From: Erwinia billingiae Eb661
Lineage (GTDB): Bacteria; Pseudomonadota; Gammaproteobacteria; Enterobacterales; Enterobacteriaceae
Assembly (NCBI RefSeq): GCF_000196615.1
Contig: NC_014306.1
Coordinates: 744,001 to 808,000, forward strand
Direction: 5' to 3'
DNA length: 64,000 bases
Every line of letters starts with the position of its first letter. Position 1 is the stretch's first letter. The notes beneath the pieces are model-generated. The model searched no databases. It was given only the letters and a program-made list of their open reading frames with translations, and was not told the origin of the DNA. The translations under genes and the position numbers were made by a program. Of the stretch, positions 18,701 to 34,687 are shown one piece after another.

Positions 18701-19364
18701 CGATCACCTTGCCTTTGCCATCGCCAAAAATCTGCACTTCCACATGACGGGCGCGGTCGATGCAGCGTTCGAGGAACACGCCTGCATCGCTGAAGAACTG
18801 TTCGCCCAGGCGACGGACGCTTTCCCAGGCGTTGCTCAGCGCCTCCGCATCCGCACAGCGGGTCAGGCCGATGCCGCCACCGCCTGCGGTGCTTTTTAAC
18901 ATCACCGGATAGCCCACGCGTTCTGCGGCGCTCAGCGCCTCGTCCAGCGAGGCCAGCAGCGGCGTGCCCGGCGTCATCGGCACGCCCGCCGCCGCAGCCA
19001 GTTCACGGGCACGGTGCTTGAGGCCGAACTCGCCAATCTGCTGGGCCGTCGGGCCGACAAAGGCGATGCCGGCCTCTTCACAGGCGGCGGCAAACGGCAG
19101 GCTTTCTGACAGGAAGCCATAACCGGGCCAGATCGCCTGCGCACCGGTCTCTTTGGCGGCGGAGAGAATTTTATCGATGCGTAAATAGCTGTCGCTGGCC
19201 TTTTCCCCGCCGAGGGCGATGGCGATGTCAGCATCCTTCACGTGCTGCGCATTTTTATCGGCGTCCGAAAACACCGCCACGCTGGTGATGCCGAGGCGTT
19301 TCAGGGTGCGGATGGCGCGGCAGGCAATTTCGCCACGGTTAGCGATCAGGACAGTATTAAACAT
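15747..19364 (-). CDS. uca: Urea carboxylase (biotin-dependent)
   Basis: 1205 residues. It converts urea, bicarbonate and ATP to allophanate. Domains: biotin carboxylase (about 1-450; ATP-grasp loop KSTAGGGGIGLTRC, and EVNTRLQVEHPVTE), then carboxyltransferase parts of the AHS2/KipA (about 455-770) and AHS1/KipI (about 800-1075) types, then a biotinyl domain at the end with EAMKM. The biotinylated Lys is residue 1171. This architecture is specific to urea carboxylase and separates it from acetyl-CoA or pyruvate carboxylases. It overlaps the allophanate hydrolase gene upstream by 8 bases, and the two form a two-step urea amidolyase. No urease genes are in the window. Confidence 0.96.
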   Translation of the reverse strand: MFNTVLIANRGEIACRAIRTLKRLGITSVAVFSDADKNAQHVKDADIAIALGGEKASDSYLRIDKILSAAKETGAQAIWPGYGFLSESLPFAAACEEAGIAFVGPTAQQIGEFGLKHRARELAAAAGVPMTPGTPLLASLDEALSAAERVGYPVMLKSTAGGGGIGLTRCADAEALSNAWESVRRLGEQFFSDAGVFLERCIDRARHVEVQIFGDGKGKVIALGERDCSLQRRNQKVVEETPAPQLPEATRAALLESAVKLGELVNYRSAGTVEYIYDAEQDDFFFLEVNTRLQVEHPVTESVTGLDLVECMLRVAAEEEIDWPRLTLAPQGASIEVRIYAEDPLKNFQPSPGVLTEVCFPDDVRVDGWINTGTEVSAFYDPMIAKLIVHAENREAALAKMQQALSETRLHGIATNLDYLRQIVATEAFRSGKVWTRMLDSFVPASPVIEVIQPGTWSSIQDYPGRLGYWDIGVPPSGPMDDFAFRLANRIVGNAEEAAGLEFTLQGPTLRFHSDTLIALTGAECPATLDGDAVAYWQPVSVKAGQTLTLGRAQMGCRTYLAVRNGFDVPEYLGSRSTFALGQFGGHAGRTLRVADMLAISQPELAACTTPAPVSEPQALDASLVPVYGDEWRIGVLYGPHGAPDFFTQESIDEFFASEWQVHYNSNRLGVRLVGPKPSWTRANGGEAGLHPSNVHDCEYAIGAVNFTGDFPVILTRDGPSLGGFVCPVTIAKAELWKVGQVKPGDRIRFHPISFEEAHALEQAQAKSVDKLHATTQPAYPVPSLAETEHGSATVLAAIKATAFTPTAVYRQAGDNYILMEYGDNVLDLALRLRVHLLMTALRETGQPGIEELSPGVLSLQIRYDSRILSQKQLLTLLLTLEKNLGDVSKMKVPSRIVHLPMAFEDSATLGAVERYQETVRSTAPWLPNNVDFIQRINGLRSREQVRDTIFDASYLILGLGDVYLGAPCAVPIDPRHRLLSSKYNPARTHTAEGTVGIGGMYMCIYGMDSPGGYQLVGRTLPIWNKFLKNEQFAANEPWLLHFFDQVRFYPVTEAELDVLREDFREGRATVTIEETVFDFADHQQFLQDNAASIAEFRSKQASSFDAEVALWAQEEEGAPLTSDENLLPEEVEDGGVQVSADLNGNIWKVLVKPGDEVVAGQPVIIVEAMKMELAIHAPQAGIVKRIACQPGRAVSPGDALLWLE

Positions 19365-21323: not shown

Positions 21324-22211
21324 TCAGGGGTTTGGCTGACTCAGCCTGTCCTGCAGGAAGGCGAGGAACTGGCGGTTAATTTCGCTTCGCTGGCGATGCT
21401 GGGGGAAGACCGCATTCAGGCTCAGCGGTGAGGGGATATACTCATCCAGCACCCGGACCAGCTCGCCACGCGCCAGCGCACCGCCGACGATAAATTCCGG
21501 CAGCAGCACCAGCCCCAGCCCGGCCACGGCGGCATCCAGCAACACCTCACCGTTATTGCTCTGCACCGGACCGCTGACCGCCATGATCTTGCGCTTCCCG
21601 TCCACCTTCAGCTCCCAGCCCGTTTGCCCTTCGCGGCCATAGCGCAGGCAGGCATGTTGCAGCAAATCGTCCGGCTTTTCCGGTTGTGGCAGTCGCTGCA
21701 GGTAGGCAGGGCTGGCACAGATCACCCGTGGCAACTCGCCAAGCTTGCGGGCCACCAGCGTGGAATCCGCCAGCGTGCCGATGCGGATCGCCATGTCGAA
21801 CCCTTCGCCAATCACATCGACATAGCGATCGGCCAGTTCGATCTGGAAATTAACCGCCGGATGGCGCGACAGAAATTCGGCAATCAGCGGAGAAAGGTGA
21901 CTCATGCCGTAGGACATCGGCATGCTGATGCGAAAGGCACCGTGCAGCGCCTGATGGCGCTCGGACACCGCCTGCTGGGCTTCCTCGATATCTTCCAGGA
22001 TGCGCTGCGCGTGTTGAGCAAAGGTGTGGCCGGTATCGGTGACCGACAGCTTACGGGTGTTGCGGATCAACAGCCTGGCACCCAGCGAGTCCTCCAGCGC
22101 TGCCATCCGGCGGCTGACGTACTGCTTGGAGAGCATCAGCTGCTCGGCGGCGGCGGTAAAACTGCCGGAGGCGATCACCACCAGATAAATCCTCAGATCG
22201 TCAATCTGCAT
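21324..22211 (-). CDS. LysR-family transcriptional regulator
   Basis: 295 residues from the ATG at 22211, which has a GAG ribosome site 8 bases upstream. An in-frame GTG three codons earlier is possible. The helix-turn-helix (about 1-60) reads DDLRIYLVVIASGSFTAAAEQLMLSKQYVSRRMAALE; the effector domain covers about 85-290. The segments GAFRISMPMSYGMSHLSP and RPRVICASPAYL-like text place it in the large DmlR/AaeR-like subgroup. It is divergent from the pirin gene, which it probably regulates. A wide inverted repeat (ACTCATTTG ... CAAATGAGT) lies between the two genes. Confidence 0.9.
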   Translation of the reverse strand: MQIDDLRIYLVVIASGSFTAAAEQLMLSKQYVSRRMAALEDSLGARLLIRNTRKLSVTDTGHTFAQHAQRILEDIEEAQQAVSERHQALHGAFRISMPMSYGMSHLSPLIAEFLSRHPAVNFQIELADRYVDVIGEGFDMAIRIGTLADSTLVARKLGELPRVICASPAYLQRLPQPEKPDDLLQHACLRYGREGQTGWELKVDGKRKIMAVSGPVQSNNGEVLLDAAVAGLGLVLLPEFIVGGALARGELVRVLDEYIPSPLSLNAVFPQHRQRSEINRQFLAFLQDRLSQPNP

Positions 22212-22342
22212 ATTGTCCACTCATTTGTGACAGTGATTGCCTTTACAGGCCATTGTTGAGCAAATGAGTTTACTTGTAATCTGGGTTCATCGGAAGGGCA
22301 ACCGCTCTCCAGAAACCTACACTGAGATTACCGGAGCAGATC

Positions 22343-23068
22343 ATGATCGAACAAAGACTGTCAGAACAACGCGGAGTGGGCGACCACGGTTGGTTGAACT
22401 CGCATCATACTTTTTCGTTTGCTAACTACTGGGATCCAAAACAGGTTGGCTTCTCGGATCTGCTGGTGATCAATGACGACCGGGTGGCCAAAGCCCGCGG
22501 ATTTGGTGCCCATCCGCACAGCAATATGGAGATTATTTCCTATGTGCTGGAAGGCTCGCTGGAGCATAAAGATTCAATGGGTACCGGCTCGGTGATTGTC
22601 CCTGGCGATGTGCAGTTGATGAGTGCCGGTAGCGGCGTCACGCACAGCGAGTTTAACCACTCGGCCACTGAAGGCGTGCATTTCCTGCAGATCTGGATTG
22701 TGCCGGCAGAGAAAAATACCCCGCCGGGCTACCAGCAGGTGTCGGTCAGTGACGCTGAGAAACGCGGCAATTTGCGGCTGATTGTCTCCCCGGATGGCGA
22801 AGATAACGCGCTGACCGTGCGCCAGGACATGAGGATTTACGCCGGTCTGTTTAACGGTGACGAGCAGCAAACCTTCACCCTGAATGCCGATCGCTATGCC
22901 TATATTCAGCTGGCACGCGGCAGCCTGACGGTAAACGGCATTCGCTTTAAAGCCGGTGATGGTGCCCGGGTGCGTAATGAAACCACGCTGACCTTCAGTG
23001 ACGGTGATGACGCAGAAGTGTTGTTATTCGACCTGCGGCCGGTGGAAGTGAATCACCAGACGCGTTAA
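22343..23068 (+). CDS. Pirin-family bicupin protein (YhhW/YhaK-like)
   Basis: 241 residues. The metal ligands of pirins and of the E. coli quercetinase YhhW are present at the expected positions: H57 and H59 in GAHPHSN, H101 and E103 in VTHSEFNHS. The N-terminal half is the metal-containing cupin and the C-terminal half (about 150-235) a second, degenerate one. Such proteins can act as quercetin 2,3-dioxygenases or as redox-sensing partners; which applies here is unknown. Divergent from a LysR gene and convergent on the alpha/beta hydrolase, with a bidirectional terminator between. Cytoplasmic; no signal peptide. Confidence 0.92.
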   Translation: MIEQRLSEQRGVGDHGWLNSHHTFSFANYWDPKQVGFSDLLVINDDRVAKARGFGAHPHSNMEIISYVLEGSLEHKDSMGTGSVIVPGDVQLMSAGSGVTHSEFNHSATEGVHFLQIWIVPAEKNTPPGYQQVSVSDAEKRGNLRLIVSPDGEDNALTVRQDMRIYAGLFNGDEQQTFTLNADRYAYIQLARGSLTVNGIRFKAGDGARVRNETTLTFSDGDDAEVLLFDLRPVEVNHQTR

Positions 23069-23084
23069 TTCGAGGTGAAAAAAC

Positions 23085-23113
23085 AACGGCCACCCGCAAG
23101 GTGGCCGTTTTTC
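23085..23113 (+). terminator. Bidirectional terminator, pirin / alpha/beta hydrolase
   Basis: AACGGCCACC and GGTGGCCGTT form a 10-bp perfect stem with a CGCAA loop. A T-run follows on the plus strand and an A-rich stretch precedes, so it can serve both convergent genes. Confidence 0.88.
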
Positions 23114-23129
23114 GTGCTGGCGCGCAAAA

Positions 23130-23951
23130 TTAATGGCTTTGCAGGAAGGCCAGCAAATCTTCGTTAAGCCGATCCTGATGGGTGACGGCAAAACCGTGCG
23201 GCGCATTGTCATACACTTTCAGCTCGGCACCGGGGATCATTGCCGCAGCGACTTTGCCGGTGGTCTCGAACGGCACCACCTGATCGTTACTGCCGTGGAT
23301 CACCAGCGTTGGCACGGTAATTTTCTGCACATCGCCGCGGAAATCCGTTTCTGAGAAGGCAGTAACGCAGTCGATGGTGCCTTTCAGCGACGCCAGCAGT
23401 GCAATGTTCAGGGTCTGCGTCAGTGCGCCCGCGGAGACGGTCTGCCCGGCGTTGGTGCCGTAGAAAGGCACGGCAAAATCACTGATAAACTGCGCGCGAT
23501 CCTGACGCAGTCCCGCTTTGATGCCGCTGAATACCGACAGATCCACCCCTTCAGGATAGTCATCGGCCTTGCCAAAGATCGGCGTCACCGCGCCCAGCAG
23601 CACCAGCCCGGCAATGCGATCGCTGCCGTAAGTGCCGAGATAACGCGCCACGTCGCCGCCGCCCATCGAGAAGCCCACCAGCGTCACGTCGCTCAGATCA
23701 AGCTGCACGATCAGTTCGTTGATATCAGAGGCAAAGGTATCGTAATCGTAGCCGGTCCACGGCTGATCGGAGCGGCCAAAGCCACGGCGATCGAAGGCAA
23801 TGCCACGGTAGCCTCGTTCCGCCAGGAAGTTCATCTGGCTGTCCCACATATCCGCATCCAACGGCCAGCCATGACTGAACAGCACCGGTTTGCCGGTGCC
23901 CCAGTCTTTGTAATAGATCGCTGTGCCATCGGAGGTTTTAATCGTGCTCAT
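23130..23951 (-). CDS. Alpha/beta hydrolase (non-haem chloroperoxidase-like)
   Basis: 273 residues of the cofactor-free haloperoxidase/esterase group. Features are the HGWPL oxyanion motif (H27-G28), the nucleophile S95 in GFSMGGG, VIHGSNDQVVPF with the acid Asp, and the catalytic His in NAPHGF near the end. FDRRGFGRSDQPWTGYDYDTFASDI is typical of this group. No signal peptide. Third gene of a minus-strand run: amidohydrolase, MFS, hydrolase, with gaps of about 42-45 bases. The substrate is unknown; the group often hydrolyses esters or performs perhydrolysis. Family call firm, function open. Confidence 0.92.
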   Translation of the reverse strand: MSTIKTSDGTAIYYKDWGTGKPVLFSHGWPLDADMWDSQMNFLAERGYRGIAFDRRGFGRSDQPWTGYDYDTFASDINELIVQLDLSDVTLVGFSMGGGDVARYLGTYGSDRIAGLVLLGAVTPIFGKADDYPEGVDLSVFSGIKAGLRQDRAQFISDFAVPFYGTNAGQTVSAGALTQTLNIALLASLKGTIDCVTAFSETDFRGDVQKITVPTLVIHGSNDQVVPFETTGKVAAAMIPGAELKVYDNAPHGFAVTHQDRLNEDLLAFLQSH

Positions 23952-23996
23952 GGTGTTTATCCTGTCGTTGAGTGAAACGGTGATAACGGGCCCCGG

Positions 23997-25625
23997 TCAG
24001 ACCGGAGCGACCAGATAGCGAACTTCAGGCTGGCTGTCTCCCTGATGGAAGGCCAGCACCCGGTTTTGAATTTTGCTGTCGTTAATGGTGTAACGTTCCT
24101 TTTGCCGCAGGTGCTCCATCCAGGAGCCGACGACAAAGGTTTCGACAAAAATACCGGGCCGCAAAATGTCTTCGTACAGACACCAGTTGATCGCACCGCC
24201 GCGCCGTCGTACCCGGCGCATCTCCTGAATACAGACCGTGAAGCTGTGGGCCTGGTCGCTGGCGATCAGGTATTCATAGCTGACCATCACCGGCCCGCGA
24301 TCGTGACGGACATCGGGCAGGGTGCCGTTTTCATCGCGGGCGATGCTGTCGAGATTCAGATCGGGATCCTGATCCAGCCGCCAGCGCAACACGGTGGCGC
24401 TGGCGAGGATCATCCCGGCGGTGGCAATACACAGCGAGGCCGGAATGCCATAGTGGGACGCCAGCTGCCCCCAGATGGCGCTGCCGGCGGTCATTGATCC
24501 AAAGAACACCGTCAGGTACACCGCCAGCGCGCGGGCTTTTACCCATCTGGCGGCGCTGCGCTGCGCGCCAAGATTGAGGGTAGACAGCACCGCAATCCAG
24601 GCAAAACCGGTGAAGAATTCAAAGGCGTTCAGCAGCCAGAAATGACGTACCCAGGCCAGCGCCAGCATAGTGAGGGCAAACATCAGGCTGGCCAGCACCA
24701 TCAACCGGTCGGCACTGAAACGTTTGCGCATCCACGGCAGGAACAGCGCGCCGCAAATCGCCCCGACGCCAATAAATGCCAGCATGATGCCGTAACCGCC
24801 AGGCCCCAGCCCCAGTTCACGGCGGGCGACCAGCGGCAGCAATGCCCAGCCCGCGCTGCCGAAAACAAAGAAGGCGACGGTGCGCACCAGCACATTTCGC
24901 AACACCGGCGCGGCATGGACGTAACGCAGACCGGCGCGGACCGCAGAGAAAAAATGCTCCGGCGGCAGGCGCTGCACGGTTGGTTCGGCTTTCCAGCGAT
25001 ACAGCACCAGCGCGACCCCCAGCACCGACAGCGCATTGAGCATAAACACCATCCACGGGCCCACGAAGGAGAGGATCAACCCGCCCAGCGCCGGACCAAT
25101 GGCGCGACTGATATTGATGCCGAGGGAGTTAAGGGCAATGGCGGGACCCAGCGACGGCTTGTCGACCAGATCCGGCACGATGGCCTGAAACGGCGGCGAG
25201 CTCATTGCCGCACCGGCGCTGAGGAAGAACGCCGCCACCAGCAGCACCAGCGGCGTGACGTGGCCGGTAAACGACAGCACCGTCAGGATCGCCGCGGCAA
25301 TAAAGACCCACAGTTGCGAAAACAGCAGGTATTTGCGCCGGTCGACGATATCGGCCAGCACCCCCGACGGCAGCGCAAACAGGAACATTGGCAGGCTGCT
25401 GGCCGCCTGCACCATTGCCACCGACAGTGGATCGGCACTCAGGGTCAGCATCGTCCAGTTCACCCCCACATCGTTCATCCATGAACCGATGTTGGAAACG
25501 ACGGTGGCCAGCCACAGCATACGGAACACCGGCAGCCGCAAAGGCTGCCAGGGCGAAACGCTCACCGCCGGCAGGTCTTCAGGCAGCGGCGTGCTGGCAC
25601 TGTGAATATCATTTACCTGCGCCAT
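23997..25625 (-). CDS. MFS transporter (MFS_3/EntS-like) with C-terminal soluble domain
   Basis: 542 residues, longer than a plain MFS protein. Residues about 25-415 carry the membrane segments, starting PVFRMLWLATVVSNIGSWMNDVG, with the motif-A-like loop PSGVLADIVDRRKYL. This belongs to the group that includes the enterobactin exporter EntS. The last 115 residues or so (from VMVSYEYLIASDQAHSFTVCIQEM to EVRYLVAPV) are soluble and look like a dimeric alpha-beta barrel (ABM-like) domain. Probable efflux of a small molecule across the inner membrane. It lies between the amidohydrolase and the alpha/beta hydrolase in the same operon. Confidence 0.87.
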   Translation of the reverse strand: MAQVNDIHSASTPLPEDLPAVSVSPWQPLRLPVFRMLWLATVVSNIGSWMNDVGVNWTMLTLSADPLSVAMVQAASSLPMFLFALPSGVLADIVDRRKYLLFSQLWVFIAAAILTVLSFTGHVTPLVLLVAAFFLSAGAAMSSPPFQAIVPDLVDKPSLGPAIALNSLGINISRAIGPALGGLILSFVGPWMVFMLNALSVLGVALVLYRWKAEPTVQRLPPEHFFSAVRAGLRYVHAAPVLRNVLVRTVAFFVFGSAGWALLPLVARRELGLGPGGYGIMLAFIGVGAICGALFLPWMRKRFSADRLMVLASLMFALTMLALAWVRHFWLLNAFEFFTGFAWIAVLSTLNLGAQRSAARWVKARALAVYLTVFFGSMTAGSAIWGQLASHYGIPASLCIATAGMILASATVLRWRLDQDPDLNLDSIARDENGTLPDVRHDRGPVMVSYEYLIASDQAHSFTVCIQEMRRVRRRGGAINWCLYEDILRPGIFVETFVVGSWMEHLRQKERYTINDSKIQNRVLAFHQGDSQPEVRYLVAPV

Positions 25626-25667
25626 GCGGGTACCTCAGACGGTGGAGTCGTGGCGTTATTCATCGGC

Positions 25668-27545
25668 TCAGAACGCAAAGCAGCTGCAACCCAGCGCGCC
25701 CCAGAAAGCGGTATCTTCGGACACCGGCACGTTAGCGCCGCGCGCCGCATCGTGCTGATGGCTGTGAACGCCGCACGGGCCGCTGCAATGGTGCACCGAC
25801 GGCATCATTCCCACCCGGGAGGCGGCCTGCGGTGGTGCGCTGCGATAATGGCCCGGCACCTTCACCACCGGCGACCAGTCGGGCAGCACCGGAATCGACG
25901 GCGGTGCCTCGGCACCAAAGGTCCCGGCGGCGTAGACCACGTTGCCATCGACCACGGTTAACACCGATTCAATCCCTTTGATCTCCTCTTCCGGCACGCT
26001 GAAGAAGTCTTTGCTCAGCACCGCCATATCGGCCAGCTGTCCGACCTTGATCTGGCCTTTTTTCCCCTGCTCGCTGGAGAACCAGGCACTGCCCTGGGTC
26101 CACAGCATCAACGCGGTTTCGCGATCCAGACGTGCGCTGGCCTCATACATTTGCATTCCGCCGACGGTGCGCCCGGAGACCAGCCAGTACAGCGCGGTCC
26201 ACGGGTTGTAGCTGGCGACGCGGGTGGCGTCGGTGCCGAGACCCACCGGCACCTCAGTGTCGAGCATGCGCGCCACGGGCGGCGTGTGGCGGGTGGCTTC
26301 AATGCCGTAGCGCTCGGCAAAGTATTCCCCCTGGAACGCCATGCGGTGCTGCACCGCGATCCCACCGCCCAATTCCTTGATGCGGTCGATATTCTTCTGG
26401 GTGACGGTTTCTGCATGGTCGAAGAACCAGTGCAGGCCGTTAAACGGAATGTCGCGGTTCACTTTCTCAAACACGTCCAGCATGCGGCTGATGGATTCGT
26501 CATAGGTGGCATGCAGGCGGAACGGCCAGCGATGCTCGACCAGATGGCGCACCACGCGTTCCAGCTCGTCTTCCATGCCGGGCGCTAAATCCGGTCGCGG
26601 TTCGAGAAAATCTTCAAAGTCTGCCGCCGAGAACACCAGCATTTCGCCGGCGCCGTTATGGCGGAAGTAGTCGCTGCCCTGGCCGGGTGACAGCATGTCG
26701 GTCCACTTTTCAAAGTCCTCGAGTTCATGGCCCGGTCGCTGGGTAAACAGGTTGTAGGCGATGCGCAGCGTCATCTGCTTTTTCTCGTGCAGCTCGGCGA
26801 TCACCTGGTAGTCTTCGGGGTAATTCTGGAAGCCGCCGCCGGCGTCGATGGCGCTGGTCAGGCCAAGACGGTTAAGTTCGCGCATAAACTGACGCGTCGA
26901 GTTGACCTGCTGTTCCAGCGGCAGCGTCGGCCCTTTTGCCAGCGTGGCATAGAGGATCATCGCATTTGGCCGGGCAATCAGCATGCCGGTCGGGTTGCCG
27001 TTGCCGTCACGCTGGATTTCGCCGCCCGGTGGATTCGGCGTGTCTTTGGTGTAGCCGACCACCTTTAGCGCAGCGCGGTTGAGCAGGGCGCGATCGTAAA
27101 GGTGCAGGACAAACACCGGCGTGTCGGGCGCGGCTTCATTGATTTCTTCCAGTGTCGGCATCCGGCGCTCGGCAAACTGGAATTCGGTCCAGCCACCCAC
27201 CACCCGCACCCACTGTGGAGACGGGGTGCGCAGCGCCTGCTCCTTCAGCATCCGCAGCGCATCGGCTAATGAAGGCACCCCTTCCCAGCGTAACTCCAGG
27301 TTGTAATTCAGGCCGCCCCGGATCAAATGCAGGTGGGAGTCATTCAGGCCGGGCACCGCCGTGTGGCCTTTAAGGTCGATCACTTTGGTGGCGTCATCGT
27401 GGTACTGCATGACCTCGGCTACCGTGCCCACCTGCAGAAATTTACCCTGTGAAATCGCGACGGCTTCCGCGAAGGGCTGTTGACGATCAACGGTGTGGAA
27501 CTTGCCGTTGGTGAAAATAAGATCGGCTTTAGCGGGCGTGACCAT
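25668..27545 (-). CDS. Amidohydrolase (YtcJ-like) with Cys/His-rich C-terminus
   Basis: 625 residues. The N-terminal part has the urease-superfamily metal motif H71-L-H73 (NDSHLHLIRGG), then FDHAETV, AVQHRMAF and the late GLGTDATR with the catalytic Asp, as in YtcJ-type amidohydrolases. It likely hydrolyses an amide, or a cyclic or carbamate bond, with one or two zinc ions. The last 60 residues are unusual: VHHCSGPCGVHSHQH followed by a terminal GCSCFAF, a possible extra metal site. First gene of a three-gene operon, with a strong AGGAGG ribosome site. It is divergent from the YcaC-like hydrolase across an operator-like repeat cluster. Substrate unknown. Confidence 0.88.
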   Translation of the reverse strand: MVTPAKADLIFTNGKFHTVDRQQPFAEAVAISQGKFLQVGTVAEVMQYHDDATKVIDLKGHTAVPGLNDSHLHLIRGGLNYNLELRWEGVPSLADALRMLKEQALRTPSPQWVRVVGGWTEFQFAERRMPTLEEINEAAPDTPVFVLHLYDRALLNRAALKVVGYTKDTPNPPGGEIQRDGNGNPTGMLIARPNAMILYATLAKGPTLPLEQQVNSTRQFMRELNRLGLTSAIDAGGGFQNYPEDYQVIAELHEKKQMTLRIAYNLFTQRPGHELEDFEKWTDMLSPGQGSDYFRHNGAGEMLVFSAADFEDFLEPRPDLAPGMEDELERVVRHLVEHRWPFRLHATYDESISRMLDVFEKVNRDIPFNGLHWFFDHAETVTQKNIDRIKELGGGIAVQHRMAFQGEYFAERYGIEATRHTPPVARMLDTEVPVGLGTDATRVASYNPWTALYWLVSGRTVGGMQMYEASARLDRETALMLWTQGSAWFSSEQGKKGQIKVGQLADMAVLSKDFFSVPEEEIKGIESVLTVVDGNVVYAAGTFGAEAPPSIPVLPDWSPVVKVPGHYRSAPPQAASRVGMMPSVHHCSGPCGVHSHQHDAARGANVPVSEDTAFWGALGCSCFAF

Positions 27546-27670
27546 GGATCCTCCTGACGTGAGATGTCCGCACCGCCCGGCGCAGGCGGCAGTACGGAAA
27601 AGGGGAGCTGGGTGCCGGACAGCAGGGCACCAACGTTGAAGAAGTATGGTGAGGAGTTTGGCCGATCGTC

Positions 27671-27712
27671 TAGTTATACGAAGGGATAACTATACGTCCG
27701 TATAGTTATACG
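27671..27712. promoter_or_regulatory. Operator-like repeat cluster between amidohydrolase and YcaC-like genes
   Basis: The hexamer TATACG recurs at 27675, 27691 and 27707, exactly 16 bases apart. Within this, ATAACTATACG and CGTATAGTTAT (27686-27709) form a perfect 11-bp inverted repeat around TC. A further TAGTTAT (27671-27677) mirrors ATAACTA (27686-27692). Lying between divergent genes next to a two-component system, it is a likely binding site for the FixJ-type regulator. Confidence 0.6.
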
Positions 27713-27811
27713 CAGAGATAATAGTGACGGTGAATTAATCGCCTTAGACTGCGGGCTGACAGTGATTTTTCGGTAGCTTAATTCGCTTTTCAACCTCAAT
27801 GGGTGACCACA

Positions 27812-28498
27812 ATGACTAACGCTAAACTTGAAGTTTTGACGCCTCATAACAGCCAGATGATTTTCATCGACCAGCAGCCGCAGATGGCCTTTGGCGTCCA
27901 GTCAATTGACCGTCAGGTGCTGAAAAACAATACCGTGGCGCTGGCGAAAGCGGCAAAAGTCTTCAATATTCCTACCATTATCACCACGGTAGAAACCGAG
28001 AGCTTCTCCGGCCATACCTATCCCGAACTGCTGGACGTGTTCCCAGGGCTGGATATCCTCGAACGCACCTCAATGAACTCCTGGGATGACCAGAAAGTGC
28101 GTGATGCGCTGGCCGCCAACGGTAAAAAGAAGGTGGTGGTTTCCGGCCTGTGGACCGAAGTGTGCAACAACAGTTTTGCCCTCTGCGCGATGCTGGAAGG
28201 GGACTATGAGATTTATATGGTGGCCGATGCGTCCGGTGGCACCACCAAAGAAGCGCATGACTTTGCCATGCAGCGCATGATCCAGGCGGGCGTGGTGCCG
28301 GTCACCTGGCAGCAGGTGATGCTGGAGTGGCAGCGTGACTGGGCGCATCGCGATACCTATGACGCGGTGATGAACATTGCTAAAGAGCATTCGGGTGCTT
28401 ACGGCATCGGCGTGGATTACGCCTATACCATGGTGCACAAAGCCCCTTCCCGTCAGAAGAGTGAGCACCGCACGCTGGCACCGGTGCCTGCGCGCTGA
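27812..28498 (+). CDS. Isochorismatase-family cysteine hydrolase (YcaC-like)
   Basis: 228 residues from the ATG at 27812; a GTG three codons earlier is also open. The cysteine-hydrolase triad can be read as the Asp in MIFIDQQPQ, a mid-domain Lys and the nucleophile Cys in VVSGLWTEVCNN. The sequence tracks YcaC closely in layout (PTIITTVETESF, FPGLDILERTSMNSWDD, VADASGGTTKEAHDFAMQRM, GVVPVTWQQVMLEWQRDW). A C-terminal tail of about 40 residues is added. Substrates of YcaC proteins are not established; amide or N-carbamoyl bonds are the family norm. Divergent from the amidohydrolase operon and 83 bases before the receiver gene. Confidence 0.92.
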   Translation: MTNAKLEVLTPHNSQMIFIDQQPQMAFGVQSIDRQVLKNNTVALAKAAKVFNIPTIITTVETESFSGHTYPELLDVFPGLDILERTSMNSWDDQKVRDALAANGKKKVVVSGLWTEVCNNSFALCAMLEGDYEIYMVADASGGTTKEAHDFAMQRMIQAGVVPVTWQQVMLEWQRDWAHRDTYDAVMNIAKEHSGAYGIGVDYAYTMVHKAPSRQKSEHRTLAPVPAR

Positions 28499-28581
28499 TC
28501 CGGGTCGACGCTCCCGGACCGGGATAAAACGCCCTGAGCCGCTTTCCCTGACTCGCCCGCGCCATGTAAAAGGATATCCGG

Positions 28582-28965
28582 ATGCGTTCACGGCCCATTG
28601 TTATTGTGGATGACGAACCCTCGGTCCGCAGTGGGCTGAGTAACTTATTGCAATCAGAAGGTTACTGCACGCTGGCCTTTGAGTCGGCAGAGGCTCTGCT
28701 GGCGGATCGCATCGCGCTGCGCGAGGCGGCGCTGTTTATCATTGATGTGCGGCTTCAGGGGATGAGTGGCGTTGAGCTGTTCAGCGAGCTGAGCCATCGG
28801 CTGAAGGCACCGCCTGCCATTCTTATCTCGGGCGACGGGGACGAGAACATGCTGTGGGTGGCGATTGAGTTGGGCGCGCTTGCTTTTTTGCCCAAACCCA
28901 TCGAGATTGATACGTTGTTCACTCACATCCGCCAGCTGTTATCGCCAGGAGAAGCGCCGTCATGA
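28582..28965 (+). CDS. Stand-alone response-regulator receiver domain
   Basis: 127 residues consisting only of a receiver domain, with no output domain. The acidic pocket is D10/D11 (IVIVDDEPS), the phospho-acceptor is D55 (LFIIDVRLQ), the switch residue S83 lies in AILISGDGD and the conserved lysine is K105 (FLPKPIEID). The layout is closest to FixJ-type receivers. The ribosome site AAGGA precedes the ATG. The stop overlaps the start of the hybrid kinase by 4 bases (ATGA), so the two are coupled. It probably receives phosphate from that kinase as a shuttle or sink, inferred from context. Confidence 0.93.
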   Translation: MRSRPIVIVDDEPSVRSGLSNLLQSEGYCTLAFESAEALLADRIALREAALFIIDVRLQGMSGVELFSELSHRLKAPPAILISGDGDENMLWVAIELGALAFLPKPIEIDTLFTHIRQLLSPGEAPS

Positions 28966-31900
28966 GCCTGTCACCCGCCGCACTGCAGTTGGTCGGCGAA
29001 GAGGGATTTTCGCTGCCGGAAGATCTGACCCTCAGTCCGCTGGCACAGGAAAGTCAGCGGGCCTGGTATCTCTGCCGCAGTACGGCCGACAGCTTTATTA
29101 TTGCCACCGCCGCCAGCGAAGACGCCACCTTTCAGGTGACGCCACTGCTGAAAAATGAGTACGCGCTGCGTGAGCAACTTAGCGAACGCTGGGCGATCCG
29201 GCCGCTGGCACAAAGCCATTTCCATGGCCGTTACGCGCTGATTTATGAACTCTTTTCCCATCGCACGCTGGCAGACTTTCTTAGCCTGACGCCGCAAACG
29301 CTGGCCGACTTCCTCACCAGCGCCATCCGGCTTTGTGCGCCGTTAAGCCAGATGCATCAGCAGGGGCTGGTTCACGGCGACATCAAGCCCGCCAACTTCT
29401 TTCTCACCGAAGACGGCGCGTTTCGGTTAGGCGGATTCGGACTGGCCTCGCTGACGTCAACGGCGCCGTTACCGCCGGGATTACCCGCATCCGGCGGCAC
29501 GCTGGCGTATATGTCGCCAGAGCATACCCGCCGCACCGCGCAGCAGGTGACGCCGTTAAGCGATCTCTACAGCTTCGGCATGGTGCTGTACGCGCTGCTG
29601 ACCGGGAAGCTGCCTTTCGGCAACGCCGACGGCGGCCATGCCGAATGGGTTCATCATCATGTCGCCTCCGAGCCGCATCCGCCGCACCTGATGCGCAGCG
29701 ATGTCCCGCCGGTGCTGTCTGCCATCCTCTTGAAGCTGCTGGAAAAATCCCCGCAGCAGCGTTATCAGACGGTGGAGGGGCTGCAGGCCGATCTGCAGCG
29801 CTGCCTGGCGACTCTGACGCCCGACGGCCAGATTGCGCCTTTTATCCCAGGCTTGCAGGATACCCAGCGCAACGGGTTTGCCTGCGAAACCCTGAATACC
29901 GAACACCCTCAGGCTGCCCAGCTGCTGGCGCAGTTCGATGAAGTGATGCACAGCGGCCGATCCGCGCTGACGGCGATCGTGGGAGCCGCGGGCAGCGGAA
30001 AGTCCGCGCTGCTGGCCTCGGGCGTGAAAAAATTACAGCAAAAGTCGCTGCTGTTAACGGTGGTGACAGCCGATCGCTACGCGCCGCGGCGGCCTTATGG
30101 CGTCTTTACCGCTGCGTTTCGGATGGTGGTGCTGAATCTGCTGGGACTGTCGGCGGAAGAGGTCGCCCGCTGGCGATCGCACCTGGTCCGGCTGCTGGGC
30201 GATTATGTCGGGCTGGCGATCGATTTTGTGCCTGAGCTGGGGGTGTTGTTGCAGCAGAAGGCGCAAGCACCTGACGAAGTCGAGTCGCCCGATGCCCGAC
30301 ACCGTTTTACCCATATGGTCTGTCGCCTGGTCAACGCCTTCGCCCGGCCGGGCAGGCCGCTGGTGATGCTGATCGACGACATTCACTGGGTCGATCGGGC
30401 CAGCCTGCTGCTGCTGCAAAACCTGCTGGAAATGAGTGAAGATGCGCCGTTGATGCTGGTGATCGCCCATCACGATCTGGCTTCGCTACCCGGTGCGCAG
30501 ATCGGCCAGCAGCTAACGGCGCTTCAGCGTTCGGCGGGCCGCTCGGTGGAGATCAGCCCTCAGCCCCTGTCGGTAAACGCGGTCGCGCTGTGGCTGGCGG
30601 ACATCTTCCATGACCGTGCGGCGGCGACAGAGGAACTGGCGCAGCTGATCCACGAGAAAACCGCCGGTAATCCGCTCGCGACCCAGGCGTTTTTCCGTCA
30701 GGCGGTGCAGGATGGCCTCATCCACCACGGCCGCACGCCGCAGAAATGGGGTTACGATCGACAAGGCCTGCGCGCCTGCCGGTACAGGGAACATGCCGCC
30801 CCTGTGTTAGCGCCGCTGGAATCGGTGTCGGTTACCCGCCGGACGCTGCTGGAAGAGACCGAGTGGGCGTTTCTACAGGGCAATCTTGCCGTGGTGCGCG
30901 CGCATTGCGAGCAGTTGCTGGCAGCGCCGGGCAACATCACCGATAAAGCGATCGCCGCCTGTTGGCTGGCGGAAATACATATGCGCCAGTCTGACAACAG
31001 CCTGGCGCTGGAAACCGCCATTGGCTGGCTGGCGGTATTTGGCATCCAGCTGAACCGCCATCCCGACAAGGCCGAATGTGATGCCGCGAGGATTTTGCTG
31101 AAGGCGGATGTCGGCATCAATCCTTACACCCGCTTCCGCTCGCTGCCGCTGATGGCCAGCCGTGAGAGTCAGGCGATCATCAACCTGATGGCCAGCGCCA
31201 GCATGTTTGCGGCGTTTTGCAATCCACGACTGCACTTTATGATCGTCTGCAAAATGCTGCACCTGACCCTGGAGCAGGGGATCAGCGGGGCCTCGACCTT
31301 TGCGCTGTCCTGGTATGGCGTGCTGTGCGGCAGCCATTACGACGAGTACAGCCGCGGCTATGCCAGTGCGCTGCTGGCGCGGGAGCTGGTTTATCACCAC
31401 GATTTTACCCGCTATAAGGCCCGCACCCTGATGCCGCTGGATCAGGTCAGCGTCTGGACCATGCCATTGGCCTATGCCATCGAGCGCGCAAAGGAAACCT
31501 TCAACGTGGCGGTGGCCAATGGCGATCGCACCTCTGCCTGTCTGGCGTTACGCCATCAAACCATGAACTACCTGGCGCGAGGCGATCACCTGGAAGGCGT
31601 GCTGACCACCATTGAACGCGGCCTGGCCTATGTGCGCAAGGCGCAGTATCAGGATGTGGAATGCGTGCTGCAGATGCAGCGCGACTTTGTGTTGTTCCTG
31701 CGTGATGGCTCGCGAAGCGAGATGTCAGGCGAGCATTTTGTCGCGGACGGACTGCGACTGGCCGGCAGCGGTATCGCTACGCAGCCGTTGTTTTTGATGC
31801 AGTTCTGGCACTGGCTTTACCGCGGTATGGCGCATTTTTTCTCGGGCGAATACCGTCATGCGGAACGTTGCCTGGCACAGGCGGCGCGCTTTACCGATTC

Positions 31901-34049
31901 AATCCCCGGGCACATTCATATGCTCGACTTTCATCTTTACAGCGCGCTGTCGCTGACCCTGCAGCTGGAACCGGCGACCTTCACTGCCGATAAGCAGCAA
32001 CAGGTGGCGGCGCATTTTGAAAAAATCGCTACCTGGGCCACCGAAAATGCCAAAACGTTTGCCGATAAACAGGCATTGCTGCGGGCCGAAATCCTGCGGC
32101 TGGAAGGCCATAACAGTGCCGCCGCTGAGCATTATGAACAGGCCATCGCCTTATCCCGCAGCGGCCAGTTTGAGCACATAAACGGCGTGGCGCATGAGCT
32201 GGCCGCCCGCTTTGCCAGCGCGCGCGGATTATCGGTGGCGGCAGAGGCTTACCTGAAGGGCGCGATCAAGGCCTGGCAACGCTGGGGAGCCGACGCCAAA
32301 GTCCGGCAGCTGGGATCCCGCCATGCTTATCTGGCACCGGCCGCCCAGCATTCGCCTTTCAATACCGTCAGCTTCGATCAGAATGAAGCGGTCAGCGATC
32401 TGCAAAGTGTGATCGCCGCGATGCGCGCGCTGACCGAAGAGATCAACCTGGATCGCCTGATCAATACCCTGATGATGATGTTACTGGAGCGGGCCGGTGC
32501 GCAGCGGTGTCTGCTGATCCGCTTACTGGAAGGGCAGGTTCCCGAAATCGAAGCGATGGCCAACGCCACGGCCGATGGCACCCGGGTGAAAATTGTGCAG
32601 GTCACCCCAACCTCAACGGATTTGCCGCTGGCGGTTTTATCGGCGGTGATCCGCACCGGCCAGGAGATCCGCACCGGCAAACCGGAGGTGTTCAGCCCGT
32701 TCAGCCAGGATCCCTATCTGGTGGCGTCTGGCGCGGCGGTGATGTGCGTACCGATGTTTAAGCAGGCGCGGATGGTCGGCGTGCTGTACCTGGAAAACAG
32801 GCTGATGCCGGAGGTGTTTACCGCGGAACACTCCAGAATCGTGGCGATTTTGGGCGCGCAGGCGGCGATTTCACTGGAAACCACCCGCCTCTACAGTGAG
32901 CTGCTGGAAGAGAACATTCAGCGACGCCGCGTCGAGAAACAGCTGCGATCCAGCCAGACCTCGCTGATGCTCGGGGAGAAGATCAGCCATACCGGCACCT
33001 GGCACTGGTATCTGGAGCAGGACATGATGGAGATTTCGGATGAATACCGGCTGATCCTCGGGCTGCCTGAACAGCAAAAGAGCCTGTCGATGGCCAACTT
33101 TTTAACCCGCGTCCATCCTGACGATCGCCAGTGTATCAGCGAGCTGGTGAGCGACAGTGTGGGTAACGGCATCATCATGCAGGCGGAGTTTCGCGTGCTC
33201 AGGCCGAATGGCGAGTGTCGCTATATCAAAGGGATCGGCGAGCCGGTCGACAGCGGCGCGGAGGTGAAAGAGTATTTCGGCACCATCAGCGATATCACCG
33301 CGCAGCGGCTGTCGGAAGATGCTGCGCGCATGGCGCAGGCCGATCTCGCCAGAGTTTCCCGCGCCACCACCGTCGGGCAGCTGACCTCCTCCATCGCTCA
33401 TGAAATCAACCAGCCGCTGATGTCGATTGTGGCAAATGCGGGTGCCAGCCTGCGCTGGCTTAAACGTGACCCCATCCACCTCGAAAATGCCTGTTCCAGC
33501 CTGCAGGAGATCATCAACGAAGGGAAACGGGCGGGCGATATTATCCGTGGCCTGCAATCGCTGACCCGCAATCATGCCGCTGAATTTGGCCGGGCGAATC
33601 TGCACCTGATTGCCCGCGATATCCTGTCGCTGTCCCGCATGGAGCTGGAAAGGCGCTGGATTGGCCTTGAGCTTAAGCTGCGCGCCAGCAATGACGCGGT
33701 GTACTGCGACCGCGTGCAGATCCAGCAGCTGTTGTTAAATCTGGTGCTGAATGCCATCGAAGCGATGGATGAAACCCAGCAGCGGGCACATCTGCTGACG
33801 CTGTCGTCGTCCAATCCAACGCCTGCGCTGATCCGCTTTGAGGTGTCCGATACCGGCACCGGCCTGCCTGAACCGGTGATCAAACGCATCTTTGACTCGT
33901 TCTACACCACCAAGAAAGAGGGCATGGGCATGGGACTGACCATCAGTGATGAGATCATTAAAAAGCATCGGGGCGAGTTGCGGGCTGAAAATCGGGAAGG
34001 CGGCGGCAGTATTTTCTGGTTTACGCTGCCGACCGAACCGCCAGCATAG
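28962..34049 (+). CDS. Hybrid Ser/Thr-kinase-like / AAA ATPase / GAF / PAS / sensor histidine kinase
   Basis: 1695 residues, no membrane segments, so cytoplasmic. Domain order: eukaryotic-type kinase fold (about 40-285; H138-G-D140-I-K142-P-A-N145 catalytic loop, SPE at about 185-187); AAA/NACHT-like ATPase (Walker A GAAGSGKS at 341-348, Walker B LVMLIDDIHW near 470); a long helical TPR-like region (about 620-1130); GAF (about 1160-1310); PAS (about 1330-1450); histidine kinase with HEINQPL (phospho-His about 1478), NLVLNAIEAM, DTGTGLP, FDSFYTTK and GMGMGL. The DFG Asp is replaced (G158-F-G), and no Lys is evident in the expected beta-3 strand (FIIATAAS), so the first domain may be a pseudokinase. 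Related trifunctional kinases exist in proteobacteria. It likely senses a cytoplasmic signal and phosphorylates the neighbouring receivers. Confidence 0.93.
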   Translation: MSLSPAALQLVGEEGFSLPEDLTLSPLAQESQRAWYLCRSTADSFIIATAASEDATFQVTPLLKNEYALREQLSERWAIRPLAQSHFHGRYALIYELFSHRTLADFLSLTPQTLADFLTSAIRLCAPLSQMHQQGLVHGDIKPANFFLTEDGAFRLGGFGLASLTSTAPLPPGLPASGGTLAYMSPEHTRRTAQQVTPLSDLYSFGMVLYALLTGKLPFGNADGGHAEWVHHHVASEPHPPHLMRSDVPPVLSAILLKLLEKSPQQRYQTVEGLQADLQRCLATLTPDGQIAPFIPGLQDTQRNGFACETLNTEHPQAAQLLAQFDEVMHSGRSALTAIVGAAGSGKSALLASGVKKLQQKSLLLTVVTADRYAPRRPYGVFTAAFRMVVLNLLGLSAEEVARWRSHLVRLLGDYVGLAIDFVPELGVLLQQKAQAPDEVESPDARHRFTHMVCRLVNAFARPGRPLVMLIDDIHWVDRASLLLLQNLLEMSEDAPLMLVIAHHDLASLPGAQIGQQLTALQRSAGRSVEISPQPLSVNAVALWLADIFHDRAAATEELAQLIHEKTAGNPLATQAFFRQAVQDGLIHHGRTPQKWGYDRQGLRACRYREHAAPVLAPLESVSVTRRTLLEETEWAFLQGNLAVVRAHCEQLLAAPGNITDKAIAACWLAEIHMRQSDNSLALETAIGWLAVFGIQLNRHPDKAECDAARILLKADVGINPYTRFRSLPLMASRESQAIINLMASASMFAAFCNPRLHFMIVCKMLHLTLEQGISGASTFALSWYGVLCGSHYDEYSRGYASALLARELVYHHDFTRYKARTLMPLDQVSVWTMPLAYAIERAKETFNVAVANGDRTSACLALRHQTMNYLARGDHLEGVLTTIERGLAYVRKAQYQDVECVLQMQRDFVLFLRDGSRSEMSGEHFVADGLRLAGSGIATQPLFLMQFWHWLYRGMAHFFSGEYRHAERCLAQAARFTDSIPGHIHMLDFHLYSALSLTLQLEPATFTADKQQQVAAHFEKIATWATENAKTFADKQALLRAEILRLEGHNSAAAEHYEQAIALSRSGQFEHINGVAHELAARFASARGLSVAAEAYLKGAIKAWQRWGADAKVRQLGSRHAYLAPAAQHSPFNTVSFDQNEAVSDLQSVIAAMRALTEEINLDRLINTLMMMLLERAGAQRCLLIRLLEGQVPEIEAMANATADGTRVKIVQVTPTSTDLPLAVLSAVIRTGQEIRTGKPEVFSPFSQDPYLVASGAAVMCVPMFKQARMVGVLYLENRLMPEVFTAEHSRIVAILGAQAAISLETTRLYSELLEENIQRRRVEKQLRSSQTSLMLGEKISHTGTWHWYLEQDMMEISDEYRLILGLPEQQKSLSMANFLTRVHPDDRQCISELVSDSVGNGIIMQAEFRVLRPNGECRYIKGIGEPVDSGAEVKEYFGTISDITAQRLSEDAARMAQADLARVSRATTVGQLTSSIAHEINQPLMSIVANAGASLRWLKRDPIHLENACSSLQEIINEGKRAGDIIRGLQSLTRNHAAEFGRANLHLIARDILSLSRMELERRWIGLELKLRASNDAVYCDRVQIQQLLLNLVLNAIEAMDETQQRAHLLTLSSSNPTPALIRFEVSDTGTGLPEPVIKRIFDSFYTTKKEGMGMGLTISDEIIKKHRGELRAENREGGGSIFWFTLPTEPPA

Positions 34050-34057
34050 GGGATAAG

Positions 34058-34086
34058 CCGGGGCTGCTAGCGGCCCCGGGTTTTTT
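34058..34086 (+). terminator. Terminator of the hybrid kinase operon
   Basis: CCGGGGC and GCCCCGG form a 7-bp GC stem with an 8-base loop followed by six T on the plus strand. The hairpin includes the stop codon of the convergent FixJ-type gene. Confidence 0.85.
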
Positions 34087-34687
34087 CGATATTGAGCCGT
34101 TCGGCCGCCCGCACCAAATCGGAAAGGGAACGCACCTGCATTTTCTCCATCACCCGGCGTTTGTGCACCTTCGCGGTGATTTCGCTGATCCCCATTTCGG
34201 CGGCGATTTGCTTATTCTGTAAGCCGCCAATAGCCAGCAACATCACTTCGCCTTCACGCGGCGTCAGCGAATGATGCCGCGCGGTCAGCTCCAGCTTTTG
34301 CTGCGAGGAAGCCATACCGTCTTCGGAAATCCTCAGCGCTTCTTCCACCGCCTGCAACAGTCGCTCGGGATCGACCGGCTTGGTCAGGAACTCGAAGGCG
34401 CCGGCTTTCATTGCCCGGACGGTCACCGGAATGGTGCCAAAACTGGTCAGAAAGATGGTGGGGATGGAATAGCCTCGTTCCATCAGCGCGCTGGCCACGC
34501 CGAATCCGTCGGTGCCCGGCATATTAATATCGACAATCAGGCAGCAGGGCGATGGGTAAAAGGGATGCGCCAGAAAGGCGTCCGGAGACGAAAAGGCCGC
34601 CACGTCATAATTTTGTGAGCTGAGTAGGTTGGTCAGCGCGGTGGTCACAGACTCATCATCATCAACAACATAAACTATGTGGTTCAT
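34067..34687 (-). CDS. FixJ/NarL-type response regulator
   Basis: 206 residues. N-terminal receiver with D9-D11 (YVVDDDESV), phospho-acceptor D53 (LIVDINMPGTDG), Thr in TIFLTSFGT and Lys in FLTKPVDPE. The C-terminal LuxR-type helix-turn-helix (about 140-200) reads HSLTPREGEVMLLAIGGLQNKQIAAEMGISEITAKVHKRRVMEKM. Its convergent position against the hybrid kinase makes it the probable DNA-binding output of that kinase. Candidate targets are the divergent promoters at 27.6 kb. Family call firm; pairing is inference. Confidence 0.93.
   Translation of the reverse strand: MNHIVYVVDDDESVTTALTNLLSSQNYDVAAFSSPDAFLAHPFYPSPCCLIVDINMPGTDGFGVASALMERGYSIPTIFLTSFGTIPVTVRAMKAGAFEFLTKPVDPERLLQAVEEALRISEDGMASSQQKLELTARHHSLTPREGEVMLLAIGGLQNKQIAAEMGISEITAKVHKRRVMEKMQVRSLSDLVRAAERLNIEKTRGR

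Follow-up and report, generated by a model that had tools for sequence, protein, structure and literature searches.

What holds together the nine open reading frames (ORFs) at positions 21324..34687 of the 64,000-nucleotide stretch of Erwinia billingiae Eb661 DNA analysed here (the window), and is there a switch among them? These ORFs encode a LysR-family regulator, a pirin, a cassette of hydrolases with a transporter, a lone receiver (REC), a sensor kinase of 1695 residues and a FixJ-type response regulator, and they are carried by a contig of 5.10 Mb in a genome of 5.37 Mb. An earlier note, made from the sequence alone, had read them as a chemical-sensing switch, and the ORF list together with Pfam/NCBIfam places all nine where that note had put them. 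When compared across genomes by sequence, the locus is a real conserved system of Erwinia, Pantoea and their relatives, and the idea of a switch is strengthened by an operator that is absent from the note. It is rather probable that a kinase/FixJ two-component switch, resembling StyRS and TodST, drives one bidirectional operator promoter of the hydrolase and pump operons; the control of the cassette by the kinase and the FixJ-type protein through this operator is well supported by comparison.

The promoter in question is located between the gene of an Amidohydro_3 amidohydrolase (Pfam; 25668..27545, minus strand) and the gene of a YcaC-like isochorismatase-fold hydrolase (Pfam/NCBIfam; 27803..28498, plus strand), where a divergent promoter region, as proposed in the earlier note, is confirmed. 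For the YcaC-like ORF, comparison with a relative makes the ATG at 27812 a more likely start than 27803. The amidohydrolase and YcaC genes adjoin the kinase gene at 44 of the 51 kinase loci put to the scan (the window, L049-L060, L064-L069 and L187-L218, counting the broken amidohydrolase of L217 as present), and the intergenic region could be extracted from 43 of these; the eight loci that were dropped are six that lack the cassette, L200, which lies at the edge of a contig, and L217, because of its fragmented amidohydrolase. One contig is present twice in the counts of 51 and 43 (as L058 and L191) and close species are included, and the Fisher values are nominal. The alignment of the 43 intergenic regions reveals a strongly conserved block of 16-bp units, TAGKTATACNNANNGA, and this operator is present in all 43, with three units in 26 loci, two in seven, four in six and one in four, as counted by script. 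In the window the tandem operator is at 27671..27720 (plus strand), with units starting at 27671, 27687 and 27703, and it holds a perfect inverted repeat with 11-bp arms, ATAACTATACG-TC-CGTATAGTTAT (27686-27709).

The geometry of this array with respect to its candidate promoters is also preserved. When one mismatch is allowed in the search for -10 elements, a CATAAT-like element on the amidohydrolase strand begins 28 bp before the first unit in 34 of the 43 loci (27 bp in five and 42-43 bp in four), and GATAAT or a listed variant is found 14 bp into the last unit in 41 loci and 29 bp into it in two. The putative -10 element of the window amidohydrolase (27643..27648, minus strand) reads CATACT, where most relatives have CATAAT, and that of the YcaC gene (27717..27722, plus strand) is GATAAT at the usual 14 bp. 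From the near-constant spacing to both elements it follows that the operator array lies between two putative divergent -10 elements.

The operator is a rare sequence, and its distribution follows that of the kinase and the regulator. The window has two perfect matches of the 19-bp pattern, compared with 0.08 expected from shuffles at up to three mismatches, and in the whole genome no other match has fewer than two mismatches, the remaining 21 being not above the 34 of a reversed-pattern control. Exact matches are found in 20 of 22 genomes (20 with the kinase, plus G691 and G659), 34 in total, with 31 at the cassette promoter and three just past the FixJ gene (G012 and G014), and there are none in 22 kinase-less genomes. 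The kinase loci that lack the cassette played no part in defining the operator, and 6/6 of these have a site upstream of the REC-kinase genes, three of these sites being weaker (scores 18.5-19.1), including that of L060, whose kinase is in pieces. At the amidohydrolase loci without a kinase, the operator is found at that promoter in only 2 of 33 (L220 and L238, both from genera with kinase matches elsewhere, and L238 retaining a FixJ relative); this count leaves aside a site of L235 (score 15.0) that is away from the amidohydrolase promoter, and three of the 33 loci (L075, L082 and L083) are from genomes having a kinase elsewhere. FixJ orthologues (E <= 1e-50) are detected in 24 of the 25 operator genomes and in 0 of the 22 kinase-less ones.

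Which protein, then, would read the operator? The response regulator of the window (34067..34687, minus strand; Pfam/NCBIfam) has the NarL/FixJ architecture, a receiver followed by a GerE helix-turn-helix, and a StyR-like FixJ regulator is usually near the cassette-kinase locus in the relatives. Its closest relative of solved structure is 1yio (164 bits), which we take to be StyR, followed by FixJ itself (5xso, 130 bits). As described in the available part of PMC5874301, StyR-like regulators recognise ATAAACN4GTTTAT, and Lys175, Val176 and His179 of StyR are the putative contacts. When compared with this description, the operator TAGKTATACNNANNGA differs from ATAAACN4GTTTAT and the regulator keeps the Lys and the Val, whereas at the position aligned with His179 29 of the 39 FixJ sequences have Arg and the other 10 have Lys, such that the pair departs from the StyR/TodT regulators in its operator and in one recognition residue. 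The changed His position is consistent with a related yet distinct site, and it is likely, from these sequence comparisons, that the FixJ/StyR-type protein binds the operator.

The sensor kinase (28962..34049, plus strand) follows the lone receiver gene (28582..28965, plus strand; Pfam), with which its ORF has a 4-base overlap (28962-28965). Pfam finds Pkinase, AAA_16, GAF, PAS_3, HisKA and HATPase_c domains in its 1695 residues, and together with the alignments this gives the order kinase-like, putative STAND-TPR, GAF, PAS, HisKA and HATPase. The AAA/GAF/PAS multi-domain build and the length reported in the earlier note are correct, but the N-terminal kinase-like domain had been overlooked; the label 'hybrid' has to be dropped, since Pfam gives no receiver in this protein and the receiver is the separate upstream ORF. 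In the alignment of 51 kinases, the window's included, the H-box His, the HATPase Asn and the Walker A Lys are each present in 51/51, and the Walker B position is Asp in 48 and Glu in three. With the phospho-acceptor Asp present in the window receivers and in the listed FixJ motifs, the residues of a two-component system are in place. The N-terminal domain has a different record: the HRD Asp is found in 48 sequences, and the DFG Asp position is Gly in 47, Arg in three and a gap in one, and because this Asp is replaced the domain is probably a pseudokinase. The central region of an intact relative has as its top fold match 6mfv, a STAND protein with a TPR sensor (E 1.6e-9, with a TM-score, the template modelling score, of only 0.24), which here would be embedded in a histidine kinase.

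Related genomes were compared in class, family and same-genus samples, with related species in the counts. The central kinase region is matched in 31 of the 295 family genomes, the window's own included, and the amidohydrolase in 90. The conserved co-occurrence beyond close relatives on which the earlier note had staked its reading is found: the amidohydrolase is present in 30 of the 31 kinase genomes versus 60 of the 264 without a kinase (Fisher p 1.6e-16, a nominal value since the species are related), and in the one exception, G453, it is in pieces beside the kinase. The amidohydrolase and YcaC genes adjoin at 30 of the 32 fetched family kinase loci, the broken one of G453 counted (L196 has neither and L200 is at a contig edge), and at 13 of the 18 named or same-genus kinase loci (not at L052, L057, L059, L060 and L065). 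One contig scan yields 15 loci, 12 of these at >=58% identity. In a sample across the class, the central kinase region is matched at E <= 1e-20 in only 15 of 369 genomes, counting the own one, with 24-29% identity in the others. The gene set recurs in another order in Cupriavidus campinensis, where a FixJ-like gene, YcaC, the hydrolase, the amidohydrolase, the MFS transporter, XapX, a receiver-like match and the kinase (38-40% identity) are present over ~14 kb, and in Rhizobium leguminosarum the genes of a receiver and a response regulator accompany a distant kinase, the cassette being absent. A megablast search of REC-kinase against plasmids gave partial matches only, in 15 records, none covering 80%. 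These distributions can be read in terms of two modules: the enzymes of the cassette form one and the phosphorelay the other, and the two are linked in some members of the family and in at least one Cupriavidus. The co-occurrence, and the operator that ties the kinase and the regulator to the enzyme promoter, partly support the chemical-sensing switch of the earlier note. Its hybrid label does not hold, and its inclusion of LysR and pirin, a catabolic rather than a protective purpose and a relay to one or both receivers do not find support here.

The standard form of the locus is seen on plasmid pPag3 of Pantoea vagans C9-1, where the pirin gene faces the alpha/beta hydrolase-MFS-DoxX-amidohydrolase operon, which diverges from hydrolase-XapX-XapX-receiver-kinase, with the response regulator gene facing the kinase gene; the order in P. 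piersonii and Cronobacter condimenti is like that of pPag3 except for the pirin. When compared with the relatives, the window is without DoxX, both XapX genes and a kinase stretch of ~158 residues. DoxX (~140 aa in most relatives) is missing at the junction 25625..25668, and the two XapX (DUF1427) genes, both present in most relatives, at the junction 28499..28581. In the own genome, one XapX query, run with no positive control, gave no match, and the search for DoxX gave only one match, of 35%, elsewhere in the genome. The kinase is shortened after residue 628 (base 30845), in a stretch that is kept in ten co-aligned relatives, and in a wider set its central segment has 438 residues versus 590-600 in 18 relatives. 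In the model of an intact relative (mean pLDDT, the predicted local distance difference test score, of 72.2), a winged-helix-like unit and then helical repeats are predicted after the ATPase core, and the stretch absent from the window kinase corresponds to most of the winged-helix-like unit and the first helical repeats. On this comparison the window copy is a reduced variant, and for this reason other copies illustrate the system better.

The proposed mechanism can be described as follows. The kinase would read a chemical or metabolic signal via its STAND-TPR, GAF and PAS regions and, as its intact motifs suggest, autophosphorylate on the FixL-type H-box. The phosphate would then pass to the FixJ/StyR-type regulator, and the lone receiver, co-translated with the kinase, may be a second target, a phosphate sink or a competitor. 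The phosphorylated FixJ-type protein would bind the operator at 27671-27720 and activate both divergent operons, the left one being amidohydrolase-(DoxX)-MFS-arylesterase and the right one YcaC-(XapX-XapX)-REC-kinase, and activation of the right operon would give positive feedback on REC-kinase. The least certain step is the last one, in which the products would hydrolyse and export an ester- or amide-type toxicant. The window copy, lacking DoxX, XapX and the winged-helix unit with the first repeats, may be insensitive, constitutive or failing. A bolder version, which we regard as speculative and rather unlikely, is that the pseudokinase and the STAND-TPR region would oligomerise on a ligand, NLR-like, and so switch the histidine kinase at mainly one bidirectional promoter, tunable by a unit number that varies between species, with the window strain as a natural deletion of the STAND switch.

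Several observations weigh against control of the cassette by the kinase and the FixJ-type protein. The visible amidohydrolase-YcaC pair is missing from seven of the 51 kinase loci, that is the six without the cassette and L200. The 43 loci in which the operator is counted also served to define it, and independent evidence comes only from the kinase-only loci and the genome-wide absences. In the kinase-less genomes the one-mismatch matches number 28, fewer than the 71 obtained with the reversed pattern as control, and single loose matches therefore mean nothing. No operator was detected at the cassette in the alpha- and beta-proteobacterial loci scanned, including that of Cupriavidus campinensis, where a kinase and a FixJ-like gene are present, and G691 keeps the operator when the kinase and a FixJ orthologue are both absent at the thresholds used. 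If, as G691 and the kinases without a cassette suggest, the cassette and the kinase module were unrelated neighbours kept by gene transfer, with the operator belonging to another regulator, this would also agree with the cassettes elsewhere that have a LysR or other regulators. This is improbable, given the operator at all the REC-kinase loci without a cassette, its absence from the amidohydrolase promoter in 31 of the 33 kinase-less loci and the co-occurrence of FixJ and operator. It is also quite improbable that the cassette is mainly under the adjacent LysR, with the kinase tuning only its own operon. Similar cassettes in Sinorhizobium, Agrobacterium and Burkholderia do have LysR genes next to them, as expected from such control, but a close relative of the window LysR is present at only two (L196 and L200) of the 32 family kinase loci, when the operator is in all 43 extractable ones.

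The state of the window copy is a separate matter. A tentative explanation, to which we give a real but lesser chance, is that the switch is decaying in this genome, the loss of the STAND piece, DoxX and XapX leaving a blind kinase and a silent or constitutive cassette. In agreement with this there are three separate deletions, and the kinase lacks part of its STAND region, which itself counts against a working switch here, as does the mean pLDDT of 56.8 for the window kinase model versus the 72.2 of the intact relative; this lower model confidence is suggestive only as a sign of damage. On the other side, the kinase deletion is in frame, all the remaining window ORFs are open, and the kinase motifs and the operator are intact. 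The absence of the small genes is also not peculiar to a shortened kinase, because DoxX is not detected at L049, L056, L068, L069 and L194, nor XapX at L189, and the kinases there do not have the window-type cut.

Other arrangements of the modules are found among the relatives. P. agglomerans HJS002 has the cassette, REC, FixJ and the operator on one plasmid, with no kinase within the 24-kb stretch shown, and REC-kinase with its own operator unit on a second plasmid, which is a kinase in trans. In G033, in which a full kinase was not found, there is a 51-residue kinase scrap of 86% identity (L081:9522-9674) with an operator-like site at L081:8574, ~1 kb off, probably the relic of a lost locus. 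L065 (G030) is a second receiver-kinase copy, 70% and 54% identical in two aligned pieces, having its own operator site and being beside a 46%-identical alpha/beta hydrolase.

Additional operator units are present outside the cassette promoter, near the kinase locus, in some cases: between the genes of a BhsA-like and an AraC-type protein, with a porin gene after the latter (L049:17621-17670), in a setting that is alike by sequence (L069:1713-1762), upstream of an AraC-type gene (L053:16676-16725), upstream of a porin (L057:18120-18153), and between FixJ and a helix-turn-helix gene (L306:15972). The AraC-type proteins at these sites have Rob, RamA and SoxS as best matches, below the cut-offs. 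These extra sites hint that the system responds to envelope or toxicant stress and does not simply serve nutrition. As for a Cupriavidus version of the operator, inverted repeats with arms of at least 8 were not found upstream of YcaC in L142 and L156; these two share a CATACCA...TAGTT stretch, which is a lead only. A weak palindromic operator-like site (score 15.0) is present in Rhizobium leguminosarum at L146:8016, ~500 bp upstream of the FixJ-like match.

The remaining cassette genes of the window are those of an alpha/beta hydrolase (23130..23951, minus strand), a close relative of the solved arylesterases 3hea and 1va4, and an MFS_3-type transporter (23997..25625, minus strand; Pfam/NCBIfam). 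The YcaC-like protein is a sequence relative of the solved YcaC product 1yac; this match is distant, and its 128 bits against the NCBIfam YcaC equivalog cut-off of 310 bits do not make it an equivalog. The amidohydrolase has a Cys/His-rich C-terminal tail, C-x-(V/M)-H-x-H-x-H and then GA-x-GC-(S/G)-C, in 16/16 aligned sequences (the window and the 15 loci that yielded sequence from 19 tried), which span Erwinia to Rhizobiaceae, Sphingobium, Paraburkholderia and an Acinetobacter-labelled record. The DoxX of an intact cassette (L141:9361-9783) matches the HvfX copper-RiPP maturation family with 30.4 bits, far below the cut-off of 80 bits. Besides the genera with LysR named above, the cassette is found beside winged-helix proteins in Paraburkholderia and Sphingobium.

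The LysR-family gene (21324..22220, minus strand; best NCBIfam match YafC, below cut-off) and the pirin gene (22343..23068, plus strand; quercetinase-type cupin by Pfam) are variable neighbours, each present in only some related loci; a close relative of the window LysR adjoins a pirin in some of these only, and the LysR gene is probably outside the core set. The base composition of the block is not distinctive (G+C 0.555-0.625 in 2-kb steps over 20-36 kb, inside the window-wide range of 0.481-0.644). The flanks are as the earlier note had described them, a urea carboxylase/allophanate hydrolase pair on one side and a bgl-type group of phosphotransferase system (PTS), glycosidase and antiterminator genes on the other. 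ARAGORN reports a tRNA-Val at 19074-19167 (plus strand) within the urea carboxylase ORF (15747-19364, minus strand), which is probably a false call.

An anti-phage defence function was considered and rejected: of the 33 PADLOC matches of the kinase, the 25 shown have their best-matching part in or around the protein-kinase domain (residues 58-327), the receiver and the FixJ-type protein have only weak PADLOC matches, and YcaC, the amidohydrolase and the hydrolase have none.

A Ser/Thr-kinase-like domain, GAF and a histidine kinase are joined in the fungal group X kinases too. Kinases of this group are treated in PMC4965123. The HstK-type dual kinases of cyanobacteria, in the available parts of PMC2176072 and PMC1262709, also have a Ser/Thr-kinase-like domain, GAF (some also PAS) and a histidine kinase in one chain, but the present system differs by the absence of the DFG Asp, the separate receiver and FixJ-type protein, and the operator with its enzyme cassette. 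StyS/StyR and TodS/TodT, the two-component systems for styrene and toluene, are similar in having a dedicated FixJ/NarL-type regulator for a catabolic promoter, StyR-P activating from a site at ~-40 according to the accessible part of PMC2442086, whereas, in what these sources offer, their kinase architecture and enzyme set are different. No description of the locus was found in the open-access literature, when considering titles and abstract openings among the matches listed, and the locus terms are absent from the accessible main text of the LPP-1 plasmid paper (PMC3505739).

In several bacterial groups, as matches to the present kinase show, a Ser/Thr-kinase-like domain is fused with a STAND-type ATPase and a histidine kinase, and the literature passages available on such fusion kinases do not name a target promoter. 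Here a regulator, a conserved operator and a few target sites per genome are predicted together, which would make the signal, the phosphotransfer and the output of this kinase class testable, and the natural kinase-in-trans, kinase-less and deletion variants would provide ready comparisons.

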